Assembly: GCA_021787595.1 (NCBI GenBank)
Contig: JAJYLQ010000001.1
Coordinates: 124,001 to 188,000 of the forward strand
Direction: 5' to 3'
Source: Chloroflexota bacterium
GTDB lineage: Bacteria > Chloroflexota > Anaerolineae > Anaerolineales > Villigracilaceae
DNA: 64,000 nucleotides
The notes under the pieces were generated by a model that did not search any database, had not been told where the DNA came from, and saw only the letters and a program-made list of their open reading frames with translations. Each line of letters starts with the position of its first letter. The stretch's first letter is position 1. Made by a program: the position numbers and the translations under genes. Below, in pieces: positions 1,887 to 10,072 of this stretch.

Positions 1887-3617
1887 TCAATTGTGAACGT
1901 AGAAAAGATAAAATAACCTGCGTGCTATTCCAAGAAATTTGCTTGTAAGAATCCCTTGTTGACGATCCTTCCACTGGATGTTGAAGCGCGGATCATTTGC
2001 AAGTTGGTTGATAAACATGGCATAGTGTTTACTTTGGATAGTGGCAAGTTCCAAGCTAGCTGATCCGGATGACAAACGGAACGCACAAAGTGTTTGAGGA
2101 AGTGTGTATAAATCGCCATATAGAAGAATCCGCGCCCATAGATCTATATCAATAACATAGCCTATCGCACCATTGAACTTGCCGGTTCTTTCTAAAAATT
2201 GACGTTTGAAAAGTATCGCTGCAGGCTCTCCTAACAGATTGGTTCCAGCGCGCACGAGACGATTGATTGCACTTTGACTCTTGAACTTGCGTTCACCTCC
2301 TAGAAATTTCCTTATTACCACTTCTTTTCCGCGCGGGTCAACAATTTGACGCGCACAAGTAACCAACGATACCGATTTGTTGTCAGGCGCTTCAAGAACT
2401 TTGATTTGGCGTTCCAGGCATTCTGGATAAAGGAAGTCATCCGCTGGGAGCAGTTTGACGTACTCTCCGCGCGCTTCGGTGACGGCTTTATTCCAATTTC
2501 CTTCGACACCGATATTGCTTTTGTTGCGTAATAATCGGATACGCGGATCCGTATATCGCGCGATCACACTTAACGTTTCATCTGTAGATGCATTATCTAC
2601 AATGAGCAATTCGAAATCCGAAAAGGTTTGTTGAAGCACAGAGTCAATCGCTTGAGCGATAAACTCTTGACAGTTGTACACCGGTATACATACAGAAACT
2701 TTTGGTTGAGAATTTTGCGCGGCGCGTAGATTTTTGCAATTTGTGATTCCTTCCGTCAAGCTGACTTTTGGCTTCCATAGGGGTAAATGTTTTCCGCCTT
2801 TCCATGGAATCATAACTTCCCGGTTGCGATATGGTCTTCCTCCCCAAACGATGTCAATTTCATATCCCGTAATGGATTTATAGAGTTTCACCAAATCGCG
2901 TAACCGGATCGGTTGACCGGAAGATATAGAGTAGATTTCATGATGCTTTACTCTTTTATCGAATAATCTGCGAGCCGCGACTATAAACGCGTTTACCACA
3001 TCGTCAATATAAACAATGTCAATAAGTTGTTCTCCCGGCGACATACTTAATGGCGTTTTTTCTAGAGCGGCGCGCTGGAGTGCATTAAATAATTTGGGCC
3101 GCTGATCTCCTGGACCGTAGGTATCAAAGAGCTTTAGGGTGATTGCTTTAAGCGGTGTTGCTTTTAAGTAATATCCTAAAATATCCTCAAACGCTTGTTT
3201 GGTTGCGGCGTAGAGATTGACAGGATTATATTCGTCGTTTTCAAAATGCTGCCAGGATGTTCCGGTATTAATTAAATAAGGTGCCTTGAGCTGCGCCATT
3301 GATTCAAGAAGTTGAGCGCCGAATGCTATGTTTGAATTAATAAGTGTAGAAACATCGTCTGCTTTATGGTTGGCGATGAACACAGAAGCCAAATGGAACA
3401 CTAAATCAGGATTAAACTTTGTAATGATGTCAAATACTTCGTTGCGTTTGCCGATCACTGGGTAAGCTTCTATTTTCGGAAGAATATCTATAATCTGTGT
3501 TAGCCCATTCTCTGGTTGATAGATAATACCTACTTCGTAGTTTTTTTTAAAACAAGCGCGGGCTAAATTTGAACCGATGAATCCTGCGCCGCCTGTGATA
3601 AGAACTCTTTTCTGCAT
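1887..3617 (-). CDS. Fusion: SDR sugar-nucleotide reductase/epimerase + GT2 glycosyltransferase
   Basis: Residues 1 to about 290 form an extended SDR: GGAGFIGSN at 9-17 binds NAD(P), a Thr/Ser cluster lies at 118-121, and Y136-xxx-K140 is the catalytic pair. From about residue 305 a GT-A family 2 domain begins (KVSVCIPVYN, VDNASTDET, then LPADDF as the metal-binding DxD-like motif). One uninterrupted frame links them, with a short linker (CKNLRAAQNSQ). In this CDP-dideoxysugar operon the SDR half could be the C4-ketoreductase that finishes the sugar, and the GT2 half the transferase that uses it; that coupling is inference. It lies 3 bp after the RmlC-like gene. Confidence 0.85.
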   Translation of the reverse strand: MQKRVLITGGAGFIGSNLARACFKKNYEVGIIYQPENGLTQIIDILPKIEAYPVIGKRNEVFDIITKFNPDLVFHLASVFIANHKADDVSTLINSNIAFGAQLLESMAQLKAPYLINTGTSWQHFENDEYNPVNLYAATKQAFEDILGYYLKATPLKAITLKLFDTYGPGDQRPKLFNALQRAALEKTPLSMSPGEQLIDIVYIDDVVNAFIVAARRLFDKRVKHHEIYSISSGQPIRLRDLVKLYKSITGYEIDIVWGGRPYRNREVMIPWKGGKHLPLWKPKVSLTEGITNCKNLRAAQNSQPKVSVCIPVYNCQEFIAQAIDSVLQQTFSDFELLIVDNASTDETLSVIARYTDPRIRLLRNKSNIGVEGNWNKAVTEARGEYVKLLPADDFLYPECLERQIKVLEAPDNKSVSLVTCARQIVDPRGKEVVIRKFLGGERKFKSQSAINRLVRAGTNLLGEPAAILFKRQFLERTGKFNGAIGYVIDIDLWARILLYGDLYTLPQTLCAFRLSSGSASLELATIQSKHYAMFINQLANDPRFNIQWKDRQQGILTSKFLGIARRLFYLFYVHN

Positions 3618-3620
3618 GAA

Positions 3621-4175
3621 TCAATCTCCTCGCGTGAATATAAATGGACTCTCTATTTCATCCAAAGTTTGGAGCGATGCGTCTCTTGATGAGATAATCG
3701 GCTTCTTTATTCCCCAATCTATGCCAATGGAATCCCAGCGAATCCCGGTATCATTTGTTGGCGCATAGACGCTAGTCACTTTATAAGTTATTAAGGCCAT
3801 TTCGCTTAAAACTAAAAAGCCATGTGCAATCCCTGGAGGCAAATATAGTATGTCGCTCTTTTGGTCATTTAATTCAATAGACTGGTATTTCTTAAATTGC
3901 GGTGAACCCTTTCGTAAATCGACAATCACATCCCGAACATGCCCAAAAAGGCAAGTAACGAGCTTGCAATATTCATAAGGAGGTGTTTGATAATGAATTC
4001 CTCGCAACACATTTTTTGTGGAGCGAGTGTAGTATTCTTCTTCAAATTCAACGGAGAGCTGGAGTTCTTTATATTGTGCGGCAACGAATGTCTTTACGAA
4101 GGACCCTCTGTCATCATTTATTGTTTTTGCGCTTATAAGAAAACAGCCTGGAATTTTTAGTGGTTCAATGTTCAT
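3621..4175 (-). CDS. RmlC-type hexulose 3,5- (or 5-) epimerase
   Basis: This 184-residue cupin has the RmlC signatures: RGIHYQ with the catalytic His, LPPGIAHGFLVLS, and SVYAPTNDTGIRW, the region of the catalytic Tyr. The full length matches the family. No dTDP-sugar genes (RmlA/B/D) are present, while the CDP-3,6-dideoxyhexose genes lie directly upstream, so a role like Yersinia AscE (C5 epimerisation of the CDP-3,6-dideoxy-4-hexulose on the way to ascarylose) is more likely than dTDP-rhamnose synthesis. It overlaps the stop of the upstream SDR gene by 4 bp (ATGA), implying translational coupling. Confidence 0.82.
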   Translation of the reverse strand: MNIEPLKIPGCFLISAKTINDDRGSFVKTFVAAQYKELQLSVEFEEEYYTRSTKNVLRGIHYQTPPYEYCKLVTCLFGHVRDVIVDLRKGSPQFKKYQSIELNDQKSDILYLPPGIAHGFLVLSEMALITYKVTSVYAPTNDTGIRWDSIGIDWGIKKPIISSRDASLQTLDEIESPFIFTRGD

Positions 4176-5218
4176 AATTCATTCTTCTGATACAACTTAA
4201 TTAGATGTTGGATGCTTTCCCGAAGAAAAAACCACTCTTTTAGTTTGAGTTCACTTTCTGCTCTTGTTGTGGATGGCACATATCCTTCTGGTTTTTTATG
4301 CGGATCGGCTTTACCTCGAATTTCAATTTGAGACTCCGGAGAAAAGCATTGTGCCACTTGCTCTGCAACCTCCGCAATTGAAAATGCCTCATCACTTCCA
4401 ACATTATACGGGCGGCAGGACTGACCCTTGAATAAAATCGTCCATAGCCAAATGGTGAGGTCTGCCGCATAAAGATAGGAACGATAAGGTGTGCCATCAC
4501 CCTTAATTATAATGGGTCCGCCGTTCATTGCGTCTCGGATAAAGTTGCCAATGGCGAAATGCGCGTCTAGCGGGAGATATGGCCCGACGAAGGCAAAGCA
4601 ACGGGCGATCTTCATTTCGATATTTGTTTGTTGCGCGTACAGCGCGCATAGATGTTCCGCAATTCTTTTTCCTTGACCATAAGCGGACTTCGGATCCATC
4701 GGATCGGGAGCGCCGGTATAATCTTCGGGGATGTGAGTCAATTCGGGCGGTTGTTTTCCATAGACCGCGCCGGAACTCGTTAACAGAAATTTTTTTGCGC
4801 CGCATGTTTTCGTAAACTCTAAAGTATGACGCGTGCCTTCGATAATGGTATCCAGCATCAACAGCGGATTCTCATCGTTGAGTTTTGCGCTGGATTCGGT
4901 CGCGGCATGGATGACATGCGAGAACGTACCTGCAGGGAAGTCAAAAGTACGGACATCGCCTTCCATAAGGGCGACCGCTTTGTGTCCCGCGAGATGCGGA
5001 GCTTTGACTCGAAAAGCGGCCGGCGAACGAGTCAACACGGTCGCACGAGCATCGAGGTCCAATTTTTCATTTGCCCAGATGAAACTTTCCAACAACCAAC
5101 AACCGAAGAAGCCCGTCCCGCCTGTGATGAAAATGCGCTGGCCGCGCAATTCTTCCCAAAGATCACGCGTATGAACGAGGATATGATCAAGATCGTCGGC
5201 GAGCGGGTTCTTATCCAT
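4172..5218 (-). CDS. NAD(P)-dependent sugar-nucleotide epimerase/reductase (extended SDR)
   Basis: This 348-residue extended SDR has GGTGFFGCWL at its nucleotide-binding site, a catalytic TSSGAVYG segment and a YGQGK (YxxxK) motif. An N-terminal extension of about 28 residues precedes the Rossmann fold. It starts 2 bp after the flavin reductase gene and ends overlapping the RmlC-like gene. It is one of two SDR candidates, with the fusion gene at 1887-3617, for the 4-keto reduction that yields a CDP-3,6-dideoxyhexose (AscF/Abe/Prt role). Which SDR does this cannot be told from sequence alone. Confidence 0.8.
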   Translation of the reverse strand: MDKNPLADDLDHILVHTRDLWEELRGQRIFITGGTGFFGCWLLESFIWANEKLDLDARATVLTRSPAAFRVKAPHLAGHKAVALMEGDVRTFDFPAGTFSHVIHAATESSAKLNDENPLLMLDTIIEGTRHTLEFTKTCGAKKFLLTSSGAVYGKQPPELTHIPEDYTGAPDPMDPKSAYGQGKRIAEHLCALYAQQTNIEMKIARCFAFVGPYLPLDAHFAIGNFIRDAMNGGPIIIKGDGTPYRSYLYAADLTIWLWTILFKGQSCRPYNVGSDEAFSIAEVAEQVAQCFSPESQIEIRGKADPHKKPEGYVPSTTRAESELKLKEWFFLRESIQHLIKLYQKNEL

Positions 5219-5220
5219 GG

Positions 5221-5925
5221 TTATTCCCAGGCATCTATTGCTATCTGTGTCCGCGGGATTCCCCGATTTTCCAGTGCATCGGAAAGTGCCTTTAACATTA
5301 CCGGAGGACCGGACAAATAATATATGACCGACAACGGGTCAGGGATCCTTTGCCAGACAACATCGAGATTGATGCGTCCCTTAACGGATTCGGGGACATC
5401 GCCCTCTTCAACGAGAAAATATGACTTGAGGTTAGCGCAGCGTTCAGCAGCAGACTCGATGAGCGAGCGGTAGATCAACAACTCGGGATTGCGTGCGCCA
5501 TAGAAAACATAGACAGAATGTGGATAATCCGATGCCAGCCCGCCCAAAAATGCTGTAAATGCCGTGACACCGGTTCCTCCTGCCAACAAACAGACATCGT
5601 TTTCAGAATCAACAATGAAATCGCCGTAGGGCAATTTGATCCACACCTGGCAGCCGGGATGCAATTCAGATTCCATGCGCGTCGTAAATTGTCCTTTGAC
5701 CGCGTACGTGATGCGTAAAAGATTGCGATTCGTCGGTGCGCTGGCAATGGAGAAGGCACGCGACTCGGGCCAGAAGTCGCCCGGATTAAATGAGTCCAAA
5801 GCAAGATGCAAAAATTGCCCGGCCGAGAAACGCGGCGCAGGAGAATCAGGTTTCAAAAATACCGAATAAACATGTTCGCCGTGATCTACCAGGTCCACGA
5901 CTTCGCAACGAATCTTCTGCGGCAT
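5221..5925 (-). CDS. FAD/NAD(P)H reductase for the 3-dehydrase (DdhD/AscD-like, no ferredoxin domain)
   Basis: This 234-residue ferredoxin-NADP reductase-type protein has the flavin motif RAFSIAS, the NAD(P) motif LLAGGTGVTAF and an aromatic/acidic C-terminus (DAWE). Yersinia DdhD (E3) is about 330 residues because a plant-type [2Fe-2S] domain precedes these domains. Here the protein begins directly at the FAD barrel, and its few Cys do not form a cluster motif. Its start codon overlaps the stop of the dehydrase gene (TAATG), so the two are translationally coupled and should work as a pair: reductive removal of the C3 hydroxyl of CDP-4-keto-6-deoxyglucose. Confidence 0.82.
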   Translation of the reverse strand: MPQKIRCEVVDLVDHGEHVYSVFLKPDSPAPRFSAGQFLHLALDSFNPGDFWPESRAFSIASAPTNRNLLRITYAVKGQFTTRMESELHPGCQVWIKLPYGDFIVDSENDVCLLAGGTGVTAFTAFLGGLASDYPHSVYVFYGARNPELLIYRSLIESAAERCANLKSYFLVEEGDVPESVKGRINLDVVWQRIPDPLSVIYYLSGPPVMLKALSDALENRGIPRTQIAIDAWE

Positions 5926-7250
5926 TAATTTACTCGTTCTCCCTGCATGAAGCGTTCAAAAACAGAACTGATGTATTCGAGCTGGAACTCATCAATGCCG
6001 GGATAAACACCGATGAAGAAAGTACTGTTCATGATGATGTCGGTGTTGGTCAGATCGCCGACCACGCGGTGCTCGATGTTCATGAAGGCCGGCTGTCGAA
6101 GCAGATTGCCGCTGAAAAGATTGCGCGTCTCGATGCGGTTGGCTTCGAGGAAACGGGTCAGATCATTTCGAGTGAAACCGGCATCTTCGCGGACTGTGAT
6201 GACAAAGCCAAACCACGACGGGTCGGAATTGGGCGCAGCCTGGGGAAGAAGGAGGCGATCCTCATAAGGTTCGAGCATGGCGTGGATGCTTCGGAAGTTG
6301 GCCTTGCGGCGTTCGATGAACCCTTCCAGCTTGGCAAACTGCGCCATGCCGATGGCCGCCTGCATGTCGGTCACTTTCAAGTTATAGCCGATGTGACTAT
6401 AAACATATTTGTGATCGTAGCCGAACGGCAAGGTCCCAAACTGCTGGCTGAAACGCTTGCCGCAGGTATTATTCTCGCCGCCGGCACAATAACAATCACG
6501 TCCCCAGTCGCGGAGGGAACGGGCAATCCGTCCGAGCAGGTCACTGCCGGTTATCACCGCGCCGCCCTCGCCCATGGTGATGTGATGCGCGGGATAAAAG
6601 GATACGGTGGCGATATCGCCGAACGTACCGGTCAACTGTCCGCGGTAGCGCGAGCCGAGCGCATCGCAGTTGTCCTCCACCACCCACAGATTATGCTGCT
6701 TCGCAAGGCGCATCACGGTATCCAAGTCGAACGGAACTCCCATCGTATGCGCCATCGCAATCGCGCGCGTCTTCGGGCCAATCGCTTCTTCGATGCGTGA
6801 AGGGATGGCAGTGTAATCGCCCAAATTGACATCCACGAATACGGGCACAAGTTGGTTTTGCACAAGAGGCGCAACAGTGGTCGGGAAACCAGCCGCGACG
6901 GTAATGACTTCATCGCCCGGAAGCAAACGGCGCTCGCCCAGCTTGGGCGAAGTCAGCGCCGTGATGGCAACCAGATTGGCCGAGGAACCCGAATTGACAA
7001 TGAACGCATTCGACAGCCCGAAAAATTCGGCAAAGTCATTCTCGAACTGGTCCGAATATCGGCTGGCGGTCAGAAAAAAATCGAGGCTGGAATCAACCAG
7101 CTTCACCAGCTCGTCCGCATCGAAGACCCGGCCAGCGTAATGCACAAAATCGGTATCGGGGTTGAAGTCGCGTTTTGCAAAGCGCGCTTCATAATATTCT
7201 TCGACCAGCTTCAAAATATCGGCGCGTAATTGCGCGTCCCGTTTTATCAC
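5925..7250 (-). CDS. ddhC: CDP-4-dehydro-6-deoxyglucose 3-dehydrase (E1, PMP and [2Fe-2S])
   Basis: This 441-residue member of the DegT/aminotransferase fold carries the hallmarks that separate E1 from aminotransferases. The PLP lysine is replaced by His in [13 protein letters not shown] (H222 corresponds to Yersinia H220). Cysteines 195, 253, 255 and 263 give exactly the C-X57-C-X-C-X7-C pattern that binds the E1 [2Fe-2S] cluster. The enzyme dehydrates at C3 using PMP and accepts electrons one at a time from the partner reductase. It overlaps the upstream dehydratase gene by 4 bp and the reductase gene by 1 bp. Confidence 0.95.
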
Positions 7251-8269
7251 TTTGACTCCGTCATCAAAAAATCCTTATACCATGCAATTGTCTTTTCCAA
7301 TCCTTGTTCCAATGTGAACAGCGGCGACCAGCCCAGAACCTGACGCGCCTTGTCCGCGTTCAAAAACTGTTTGCGGATTTCATTGCTGGCTTCATTGCGA
7401 ATTTCAGGCTCCAGGTCAGATCCCATCAAGGCAAGGATACGCCGCGTCAATTCCAACACTGTTACCTGATTGCCATAAGAAAAATTAAATCCTTCCCCGC
7501 GCAGTTCAGGGTACGCGGCCAGCTTCTCAGCCAGCAGCATATAGGCCGCGGCGCCATCTTCCACATAGAAATAATCACGCACGTACTGCCCATCCGAACG
7601 GATGACCGGCCGCAGCCCGCGCAGGATGGAGCGGATCGTACCCGGCACGATGCGGTTCCAGTTCAAGTCGCCGCCGCCGTAAAAATTTCCGCAGCGCGTG
7701 ATCGCCACCGGCAATTCATAACTGACCGCGTAGGTCTTCGCGATCAAATCTGCGGCAGACTTGGAGACATCATAAGGATGCTGTCCCTGGAGCGGCGTGG
7801 TCTCATCATACGGCAGGACCTCCTGATCGCCATACGCCTTATCCGACGACGCGGCCACGATCTGTTTGACCGTCGGACTGCGGCGGCAGGCCTCCATCAA
7901 ATTCCACGTCCCGGCGATGTTGGTCTCGAAAGTCGGGACGGGATTCCGGTTCGCAATCGTGACGATGGTCTGCGCGGCCAGATGGATGACGGTGTCAATC
8001 TCATATTCGCCAAGGCTTCGCTCCAGCACTTCTCGGTCGCGGACATCTCCGCGCACAACCTTGACCTGCTCGATCAGCCCCGCGCGCACAAGTTCGCTCT
8101 GCGGGACCCAATCACGCACGAGACAGACCACGTCCGCGCCGGCTTCCGTTAAACGGCGCACCAGCCACGACCCGACCAATCCCGTTCCCCCGGTGACAAA
8201 GGTGGGACGGTCCTGCCAGAAAGCGCGGCCTGCCCCGATGCTTTTAGCGGGGTTCACCAGATTTTCCAT
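7247..8269 (-). CDS. ddhB: CDP-glucose 4,6-dehydratase
   Basis: This is an SDR of about 340 residues with [12 protein letters not shown] at the N-terminus, a catalytic AASSDKAYG segment and PYDVSK (YxxxK). Converts CDP-glucose to CDP-4-keto-6-deoxyglucose, the substrate of the next gene's product. The start at 8269 (MENLVNPAK) is preferred over the longest frame at 8332, which would overlap the upstream gene by 79 bp; even so 16 bp overlap. Identity as the CDP enzyme rather than another hexose dehydratase rests on sequence style plus adjacency to the cytidylyltransferase and E1 genes. Confidence 0.92.
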
Positions 8270-9021
8270 GGGGCATTTCCTTCCTGCCACAGTTTGTTGA
8301 GCAGGTGAACGTCGCGCAGTGTGTCCATGCACTGCCAGAAAGAATCGTGCTGATAGGCACTGACTTGTCCCTCGGCGGCCAATTGTTCGAGCGATTCGAA
8401 TTCCCAGGCGGTGCGGTCGCTTTCGATGTATTTCGTGATGCCCGGTTCCAACACGAAGAAGCCGCCATTGATCCAGCCTTCACCGATCTGCGGCTTTTCT
8501 TTGAATTCGGTAACATGTCCGTCTTCAATCACCATCTGCCCGAAGCGCGCTGGAGGACGCACTGCAGTAAGCGTAACCAGTGTCTCCTGCCTTCGATGAA
8601 AATCAACCAGAGCTGGTATGTTAATATTACTGACGCCATCGCCATAAGTAAGCATGAAAGTTTCGTCTCCAATGAACTGGGCAATCCGCTTTACGCGCCC
8701 GCCAGTATTGGTATCTGCACCGGTATCGAGCAGATGAATGATCCAATCTTCATGGTTGCCTTCATGAATGGAAACGGAACCAGATTTCAAATCGACAGTC
8801 AGGCTGTAGGCATGATGGCGAAAATTGAGGAAGTAATCCTTTATAAGCTCACCTTTATACCCAAGGGCCACCACAAACTCTTTGAATCCATAGGCGGCAT
8901 AAATATTCATGATGTGCCAAAGGATCGGCTGTCCCCCCACCTCCACCATGGGTTTGGGCTTGATGGTAGTCTCTTCAGAAAGACGGGTTCCCAATCCACC
9001 TGCCAGGATGCCAACCTTCAT
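8254..9021 (-). CDS. ddhA: Glucose-1-phosphate cytidylyltransferase
   Basis: This 255-residue nucleotidyltransferase opens with [13 protein letters not shown] and contains [10 protein letters not shown], the active-site lysine region. Later motifs [16 protein letters not shown] and [10 protein letters not shown] are typical of RfbF/DdhA. It makes CDP-glucose from glucose-1-phosphate and CTP, the committed step of 3,6-dideoxyhexose synthesis. First of six tightly packed sugar genes; 112 bp separate it from the GT2 gene upstream, so the sugar genes could have their own promoter, although none was clear. Confidence 0.95.
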
Positions 9022-9133: not shown

Positions 9134-10072
9134 TTATTTTTCGTTCAAAAGCCGTGGTCCTGTTTTGACAAACATCCCGTAAGCCTGGAGGGTCTCGATT
9201 AAGTGTTTCCCGGAAAGGTGAACTAAATTCCTGCTTATACGTGCCACAAACTCCAGAGACAACATCGAAACTAGAATCCATTTGGCAGACTGCAGGCCAA
9301 AATGCTTCCTCGTATACTGCAATCTGCTTGTCATCCAATAAAACAACCGCTCCGCCTTGACTTGATCGGACGTGCCTCCGCCCCGATGAAAGGCCTGCGC
9401 GTCAGCAAGATAATAACTTCTCCAGCCCGCCAGCTTTGCGCGAAAAGCAAAATCCACATCTTCGTAATACATAAAAAATCTCTCATCAAAGCCACCTAAC
9501 GCTTCATATACATTCCGCCGCACCAGGAAAAAGGCGCCCTGCACCTGTTCCACTTCCCTGCTTACTCGATGATCCCAGTCGGTCATAATGTAGGGCCGAA
9601 AGCGGGAAGGCCAAAGGCGATCCAAACCGATCATTTGATAAGTCAGAGACCAGGGCGCAGGAAAGCGGGCTGCATTGCGCTGGATATTGCCATTCTCATC
9701 TACAAGTTGAATCCCGAGAATGCCCACCTGTTCATGCTGCGGATCTTCCAAAAACACGATGGATTTGGAAAGACTTTCTGGGAATAATTTAATATCGGGA
9801 TTTAGAAAGAGAATATATTTTCCCGTCCCGATTCCCGCTCCCTGATTGCAGGCTGTTCCAAAACCTTTATTTTCCTGGTTCTTGATTACGATGAGATTGA
9901 ATTTGAAACCGTCCAAACTTTCAGCAGAACCATCAGAGGAGGCATTATCAACAACAATACAGGTTGATAAATGAAAAACGTTCCCTGATGGCAGGCTTTG
10001 AATGGACTTTAAACATTCCAGCAATTGCCCGCCTGCGTTCCAATTGACAATGACGATATCGAGTTTGACCAT
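9134..10072 (-). CDS. GT2 glycosyltransferase (rhamnosyltransferase-like)
   Basis: About 312 residues from the ATG at 10072 (MVKLDIVIVNWN); the longer frame from 10132 adds 20 low-complexity residues and is not preferred. The family 2 pattern is clear: VNWNAGG, VVDNASSDGS, FLNPDI for the DxD-like site, and FFMYYEDVDFAFRAKLAGW as in WcaA/RfbF-type rhamnosyltransferases. It is a cytosolic enzyme acting on the lipid-linked glycan, located between the exporter ATPase and the CDP-sugar genes. The donor sugar cannot be read from sequence. Confidence 0.88.
   Translation of the reverse strand: MVKLDIVIVNWNAGGQLLECLKSIQSLPSGNVFHLSTCIVVDNASSDGSAESLDGFKFNLIVIKNQENKGFGTACNQGAGIGTGKYILFLNPDIKLFPESLSKSIVFLEDPQHEQVGILGIQLVDENGNIQRNAARFPAPWSLTYQMIGLDRLWPSRFRPYIMTDWDHRVSREVEQVQGAFFLVRRNVYEALGGFDERFFMYYEDVDFAFRAKLAGWRSYYLADAQAFHRGGGTSDQVKAERLFYWMTSRLQYTRKHFGLQSAKWILVSMLSLEFVARISRNLVHLSGKHLIETLQAYGMFVKTGPRLLNEK

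Follow-up and report, generated by a model that had tools for sequence, protein, structure and literature searches.

How does an E1-type sugar 3-dehydrase receive its electrons when the reductase encoded beside it carries no [2Fe-2S] domain? The model for biological C3-deoxygenation is taken from the textbook E1/E3 pair, in which two [2Fe-2S] clusters follow one another. As laid out in a published review, electrons in this classical pair pass from NADH to FAD, then to the [2Fe-2S] cluster of E3 and on to that of E1, a catalytic histidine of E1 replaces lysine, and SpnQ uses ferredoxin or flavodoxin systems (PMC8987622). An earlier note on the DNA analysed here, a stretch of 64,000 nucleotides from a Chloroflexota bacterium (the window), drew attention to an E1 gene followed by a short reductase, and read the pair as a variation of the radical C3-deoxygenation system. 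Such a pair raises the question of whether the cluster of E3 is mechanistically needed.

The E1 gene and its short reductase

The genome that contains the window measures 4.08 Mb, the window being part of contig C41, and the operon runs on the minus strand of the window in the order RfbF, 4,6-dehydratase, E1, reductase, SDR, RmlC-type epimerase and SDR/glycosyltransferase fusion (Table 1). The presence of the RmlC and SDR genes suggests that the product is an L-configured 3,6-dideoxyhexose of the ascarylose kind. E1 scored 698.9 bits against the RfbH model (cut-off 423), and its best match in the PDB was 3bcx, CDP-6-deoxy-L-threo-D-glycero-4-hexulose-3-dehydrase. The closest named relatives of E1 among the matches listed came from Anaerolineae/Chloroflexota assemblies. 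All four cysteines of the cluster site are kept in the arrangement C195-X57-C253-X-C255-X7-C263, the perfect C-X57-C-X-C-X7-C site that had been claimed for this protein; C195 lies outside the cluster loop, at about positions 6666-6668. The four cysteine columns and the H222 column were invariant in 115 of 115 aligned E1s.

The reductase gene is complete and not truncated. Its ATG begins at position 5925, the last base of the E1 stop codon, and this one-base overlap (gap -1) leaves no room for a missed upstream domain, as the earlier note had argued. Pfam returned NAD_binding_1 as the sole match, and the spacing of the cysteines (residues 7, 92, 112 and 163) fits no [2Fe-2S] motif. An AlphaFold model of the protein (mean pLDDT 95.8) could be aligned over its full length with FNR-type reductases, among them the E. 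coli flavodoxin reductase 1fdr (Z 27.5, rmsd 2.3, 222 residues) and the reductase part of the benzoate dioxygenase reductase 1krh (Z 27.5, rmsd 2.4, 226 residues). Identity to FNR-type folds in these structural alignments was about 20%, and the match to 1fdr indicated that the two-domain FNR fold is present. The Pfam result, the cysteine spacing and the predicted fold all agree with the initial description of a 234-residue reductase lacking a [2Fe-2S] domain. We infer that its cofactor is FAD.

Table 1. Features of the E1 operon, with positions in the window.
Feature	Position	Strand	Basis and remarks
SDR/glycosyltransferase fusion, 576 residues	1887-3617	(-)	SDR epimerase domain at residues 5-222, family 2 glycosyltransferase at residues 308-429
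RmlC-type 3,5-epimerase, probable later step	3621..4175	(-)	TIGR01221, 166.6 bits, over cut-off
SDR enzyme, probably a 4-ketoreductase or epimerase acting later in 3,6-dideoxysugar formation	4172..5218	(-)	Domain match; relatives in 16 of 51 short-reductase loci
Short E1 reductase	5221..5925	(-)	234 aa, FAD- and NAD-type domains, no [2Fe-2S] domain
C-terminal IDAWE of the reductase	5224..5238	(-)	Residues 230-234, W233 invariant
Family signature FWPESRAFS of the reductase	5749..5775	(-)	Residues 51-59, invariant W52-P53 before the flavin-binding motif
E1, PMP/[2Fe-2S] sugar 3-dehydrase (RfbH/DdhC), 441 aa	5925..7250	(-)	RfbH model, cysteines, 3bcx
E1 cluster loop	6399..6533	(-)	Residues 240-284 with C253, Y254, C255, C263 and Q269; 7 of 10 diagnostic columns
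Probable CDP-glucose 4,6-dehydratase, RfbG-like	7247..8332	(-)	TIGR02622, 217.7 bits, below the cut-off of 278.45; true start probably inside this interval
Glucose-1-phosphate cytidylyltransferase (RfbF)	8254..9021	(-)	TIGR02623, 381.3 bits, over cut-off

The short reductase as linked partner of E1

We sorted 115 distinct E1 loci by the reductase found near E1. The loci were drawn from the best 80 of at least 579 E1 relatives in a genome collection, 20 Chloroflexota regions (from 25 genomes with an E1 over the cut-off), 15 other regions (from 10 of 11 Marinobacter-class genomes and 5 of 34 plasmid records) and the window itself. Locus L177 repeats L025, and the original 116 loci, 39 of them with no linked reductase, were counted as 115 and 38 in the trees and column counts. 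In this sample, which is biased towards the E1 of the window, a short reductase was found in 51 loci and a [2Fe-2S]-bearing reductase in 5; in 38 none was linked, meaning that a reductase profile matched nothing where each side of E1 was covered for 3.5 kb or more, and the flanks of 21 were too short to judge (13 with 0.7-3.5 kb and 8 with less than 0.7 kb on one side). The best 80 of at least 579 relatives, a choice that biases the share of short reductases upward, contributed 48 short, 2 [2Fe-2S]-bearing, 16 with none and 14 with too little flank.

The short reductase was encoded on the strand of E1 in all 51 loci, downstream in 48 and upstream in 3, and was mostly adjacent to it; of the 44 with an assigned start, 39 begin in the interval from 4 bases upstream to 168 bases downstream of the E1 end. 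Going by the titles of their records, these loci span some 15 phyla, among them Chloroflexota, Acidobacteriota, Verrucomicrobiota, Elusimicrobiota, Bacteroidota, Ignavibacteriota, Spirochaetota, Lentisphaerota, Fibrobacterota and Bdellovibrionota. Almost every one of these records is a metagenome assembly, and single phylum assignments may be wrong. Relatives of the other operon genes were seen, at the score limits used, in fewer of the 51 loci (RfbF in 37, RfbG in 20, SDR in 16 and RmlC in 8).

A profile built from 45 short proteins alone was used for a scan of 400 Chloroflexota genomes, for the reductase tree and for the whole-genome check described below. Four of the 400 genomes (G000, G240, G384 and G357) scored at least 233 bits (233-308), the next best score being 133. 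All four are among the 25 with an E1 over the cut-off, and their reductase adjoins E1. With at most seven candidates scored per genome, no short reductase was seen without an E1 among the 400. The remaining 21 of the 25 E1 genomes lack a short reductase, and E1 thus often occurs without this reductase.

The earlier note had asked whether reductases of this kind are always next to E1. The shared strand in 51 of 51 loci and the position beside E1 in 4 of 4 Chloroflexota genomes are in keeping with this, while strict adjacency holds for most loci and not for all. The view of the earlier note that the system is a variation of the radical C3-deoxygenation E1 system is borne out. What had not been foreseen is that the short reductase is not peculiar to one genome: within a large E1 subfamily it is the partner usually linked to E1.

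No natural fusion of E1 to a reductase was seen, and four long E1 frames (L128, L131, L134 and L137) contained no reductase domain. In L131 (8328-10706, minus strand) E1 shares one frame with an RmlD-like SDR domain that precedes it, and in L128, L134 and L137 long N-terminal open stretches without a Pfam match lie before E1.

The short reductases form one family

Fer2 of Pfam was found in 0 of 45 short reductases. It was found in all four [2Fe-2S]-bearing reductases that were scanned, from Salmonella (L168), Sphingomonas (L170), the Marinobacter class (L173) and Pedobacter (L078), the first three of which are DdhD-type (Fer2 in 3 of 3); the fifth, L084, was judged by motif only. NAD_binding_1 was present in 45 of 45 short reductases, and the FAD-domain model of Pfam matched part of the members only. 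A second-round reductase profile, fnr2 (59 sequences), included L078, L084 and L087, and the scores of these three are therefore inflated. The alignment of 45 leaves out L010 (split), L011, L023 and L060 (contig-end cuts), L016 (fused) and L066.

In a quick tree of 93 reductases, 47 short proteins (the 45 of the survey together with those of L044 and L063) formed one side of a branch with a support of 97.8. The 46 proteins on the other side comprised three DdhD, two Pedobacter-type and 41 general reductases, and the short reductases did not group with DdhD. The start codon lay 31-35 residues before the core motif in 43 of 43 members in which the motif was located (in six more it was not located), and the 45 aligned proteins begin and end at about the same place. 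We considered a ferredoxin domain hidden at the N-terminus by a frameshift or a wrong start, and rejected it in view of the conserved start, end and length across the short family. A sequencing error with the same effect, which the earlier note had regarded as damaging to its reading, is very unlikely, since the other members have the same start.

Two signatures mark the family. A WPxSRxFS-type match was present in 45 of 45 aligned short reductases, whereas the five [2Fe-2S]-bearing reductases lack it in the residues that precede RxYS. At the C-terminus, D-x-W was found at most two residues from the end in 44 of 45 (the remaining one has E-S-W), and was absent from the same five [2Fe-2S]-bearing proteins. 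After the RxFS motif, G78 is invariant and T81 nearly invariant, and these residues presumably resemble the FAD pyrophosphate contact of FAD-holding reductases. In FNR enzymes, the stretch before RxFS is near the ferredoxin-docking edge of the flavin, and a C-terminal aromatic residue stacks on the flavin; by analogy, WPxSRxFS and D-x-W would plausibly mark the docking site for E1 and a flavin cover, respectively.

The distances among E1s and among reductases were correlated (Mantel r 0.79; 0 of 2000 permutations as high), as expected if both were inherited together. At locus L016 (9199-10749), from the same genome as L102, the short reductase runs into an SDR, the C-terminus of the reductase and the N-terminus of the SDR being missing; this looks like a deletion or an assembly fault.

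The cluster loop of E1

In a quick tree of the 115 E1s, all 51 short-reductase E1s fell into one half of 68 rows, and the other half (47 rows) held all five [2Fe-2S]-partnered E1s as well as 29 of the 38 that have no linked reductase; the branch separating the two halves was weakly supported (76). The short label changed 8 times on this tree, compared to 37.7 times in shuffles. Ten alignment columns separate the short-reductase E1s from the rest, and seven of them lie in residues 240-284 around the cluster (hypergeometric 8e-6, calculated with rounded column numbers for a region picked after seeing the result).

At position 254, which is flanked by two of the cluster cysteines, Tyr occurs in 51 of 51 short-reductase E1s and in 5 of 5 [2Fe-2S]-partnered E1s; among the 38 E1s without a linked reductase the residue is Trp in 25 and Tyr in 9. 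Residue 269 is non-aromatic in all 51 and all 5, and is Trp in 26 of the 38. A second Salmonella plasmid locus, with a DdhD frame in its DNA, has Tyr254 and Gln269. Three further plasmid E1 loci, which gave no match to either reductase profile, have Trp or Tyr at 269, and Tyr254 in two of them. These later plasmid loci indicate that residue 269 tracks the partner better than residue 254.

Control splits of the tree were used for comparison. Near the boundary of the halves, 4-7 of 8-12 diagnostic columns fell in the loop (2 of 7 in one direction). Splits wholly inside the short-reductase clade gave 0-1 loop columns, mixed sub-splits of the same half gave 0-3, and splits inside the other half gave 0-7 loop columns among 8-58 (for example 7 of 58, 6 of 17 and 3 of 8). 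The loop thus differs most at the boundary, although it varies in other parts of the tree as well. A descent-corrected test of loop residue against partner had 5 independent pairs only; residues 254 and 269 were never opposite to expectation in these pairs, and the result was not significant. L132 and L136 keep all four cysteine columns, although in their cluster loops the last cysteine is preceded by a longer spacer.

We had predicted that an E1 with a short-type loop, in the same half of the tree, and no short reductase in its flank would keep such a reductase elsewhere in its genome. For the most part this was not observed: of 8 such genomes, 2 (L044 and L063) had a short reductase. Both genes lie at contig ends (G731:C14, up to base 10054 of 10071, and G732:C236, from base 126), and are probably E1 neighbours cut apart by a contig break. 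None was found anywhere in the other six genomes, which include those of L021, L024 and L071 with ample flanks; five of the eight had short flanks, so the true counter-cases are L021, L024 and L071. Either E1s of this type have lost the partner and kept the loop, or the partner is missing from the assembly, or the loop does not strictly demand it. No short reductase was found in 15 genomes with other loop types that were searched (best score 132 bits).

The route of electrons to E1

We consider it rather probable that the reductase is the dedicated donor of the neighbouring E1, and that electrons pass from NAD(P)H to FAD and directly on to the [2Fe-2S] cluster of E1. In this scheme, NAD(P)H would give up a hydride to the FAD bound by the reductase, single electrons would move from FAD straight to the E1 cluster, and the cluster would then reduce the PMP-glucoseen intermediate. 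E1 would thereby take the role of the fused ferredoxin domain of the Salmonella/Yersinia partner. The reductase would dock at the cluster loop of E1, and the pairing would be partner-specific. FNR-type flavoproteins normally exchange single electrons with [2Fe-2S] proteins, and since E1 is itself a [2Fe-2S] protein, transfer directly from FAD to the cluster is suggested.

The short reductase could instead be a ferredoxin reductase, with a general ferredoxin encoded elsewhere reducing E1, for which SpnQ with its ferredoxin or flavodoxin systems offers a precedent (PMC8987622). The characterised E3 uses its own [2Fe-2S] cluster, and the absence of one here could mean that a separate carrier is needed; flavodoxin reductase 1fdr, tied with 1krh, is also among the best folds by VIA-align. 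Nevertheless, no ferredoxin linked to the pair was detected. Across the 51 loci (683,466 bases), 39 ORFs carried either of two cysteine patterns and 0 matched a ferredoxin family, in a scan that applied the two patterns as a prefilter before Pfam to the fetched flanks, some of them short, and would miss carriers without the patterns. A linked ferredoxin gene in relatives, which the earlier note had named as evidence against its reading, was thus not found within these flanks. Some E1s that have no linked reductase do have ferredoxin or ferredoxin-like genes nearby, at distances of up to about 8 kb (L125 14748-15290, by Pfam; L079 10975-11721, by motif only; L172 16866-17069, by annotation), indicating that the scan is able to find them.

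In the genome of the window there are five Fer2 matches, all in frames of 247-950 residues whose sequences by eye resemble NuoG, two molybdenum hydroxylases, an activation protein and a succinate dehydrogenase subunit. No stand-alone Fer2 ferredoxin was found in this genome, and PF00258 found no flavodoxin. The genome is rich in 4Fe-4S domains, including three small frames of 69-82 aa which could be ferredoxins, and a general ferredoxin may therefore be available. However, an exclusive tie to E1 and a divergence pattern shared with it are not what one would expect of a general ferredoxin reductase. We regard a ferredoxin intermediate as unlikely and favour direct transfer, although the sequence leaves some room for a separate ferredoxin.

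A flavin reductase of the Fre/LuxG type, releasing reduced flavin that diffuses to the E1 cluster, would be similar in length, and the Fre and LuxG models were among the better NCBIfam matches, as was the Fre fold among the structures (Z 24.9). The scores of 74.1 bits for Fre and 63.8 bits for LuxG are, however, far under the cut-offs (230 and 340, respectively), the short family keeps G78 and T81 at the presumed FAD contact, and a diffusible donor would leave the tight pairing with E1 unexplained, making this mode of action improbable. It is highly improbable that the reductase serves one of the further redox steps among the operon neighbours and lies beside E1 by chance, given the pairing with E1 across about 15 phyla, the lower frequency of relatives of the other neighbours, and the failure to see the short family without E1 in the 400 genomes.

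Direct transfer can be extended to a broader proposal, which we hold more tentatively: the E1s with a short reductase may represent an old, large subfamily in which electrons run from NAD(P)H through FAD and the E1 cluster to the PMP-sugar, and in which the loop, at residue 254 and above all at residue 269, records the kind of donor. If this is true, the electron source of an E1 could be read from its sequence, and the chain would be shorter than any described for E1.

Comparison with known systems

The E1/reductase pair of the window fits neither the classical E1/E3 scheme nor that of SpnQ. In the open-access literature, covered by titles and the starts of abstracts and with subscription papers mostly outside, we came across no description of RfbH/DdhC accompanied by a reductase that lacks the [2Fe-2S] domain. 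This is weak evidence of absence, and the widespread variant of the E1 system described here is apparently new.

Like DdhC/DdhD and AscC/AscD of Salmonella and Yersinia, the pair includes an E1 with the catalytic histidine and the four-cysteine site, and, as aligned, Tyr254 and Gln269 are shared with the Salmonella and Yersinia E1s. It also resembles DdhD/AscD in having a dedicated FNR-type NAD reductase with FAD- and NAD-binding modules in the gene cluster. Unlike DdhD/AscD, this reductase is short, lacks the [2Fe-2S] domain, falls on a branch of its own within the FNR superfamily and carries the WPxSRxFS and D-x-W signatures. Its gene usually lies directly after E1, whereas the Salmonella reductase gene lies before rfbF. 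On a plasmid of Salmonella serovar India (L233), a DdhD frame is present in the DNA at about 3106-4102 and is missing from the distributed gene table.

Other arrangements were also seen. In Pedobacter (L078 3628-4656 and L084 3610-4656), a reductase with a C-terminal [2Fe-2S] domain lies about 3.3 kb upstream of E1; this arrangement is of a third kind, and the reductase is a putative E1 partner. On plasmids from Desulfobaculum and Methylovirgula, a two-gene transketolase comes after E1 (L171 9334-11132 and L230 9379-11132) and perhaps serves a branched-chain CDP-sugar.

SpnQ, compared by description, is likewise an E1-type enzyme whose partner chain has no fused [2Fe-2S] reductase; unlike SpnQ, the E1 of the window has a dedicated reductase whose gene overlaps its own by one base. 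Its loop is of the CYC type, as opposed to CWC in 25 of the 38 E1s without a linked reductase. In fold and in domain order over the whole protein, the reductase resembles bacterial FNR/Fpr and the reductase modules of flavohemoglobins, in which FAD is the direct electron donor to heme or to a separate ferredoxin. It differs from them in its low identity (about 20%) and in the proposed acceptor, the cluster of a PLP-fold enzyme.

For recombinant E1/E3 of Y. pseudotuberculosis and S. Typhi, one recent study reports that no combined activity was obtained (PMC7851689). The short pair is a simpler two-protein system to try, and its sequence marks may allow E1s to be sorted by electron donor. In our biased survey the textbook arrangement is the rarer one, with 51 of 56 linked reductases being short and many E1s having no linked reductase.
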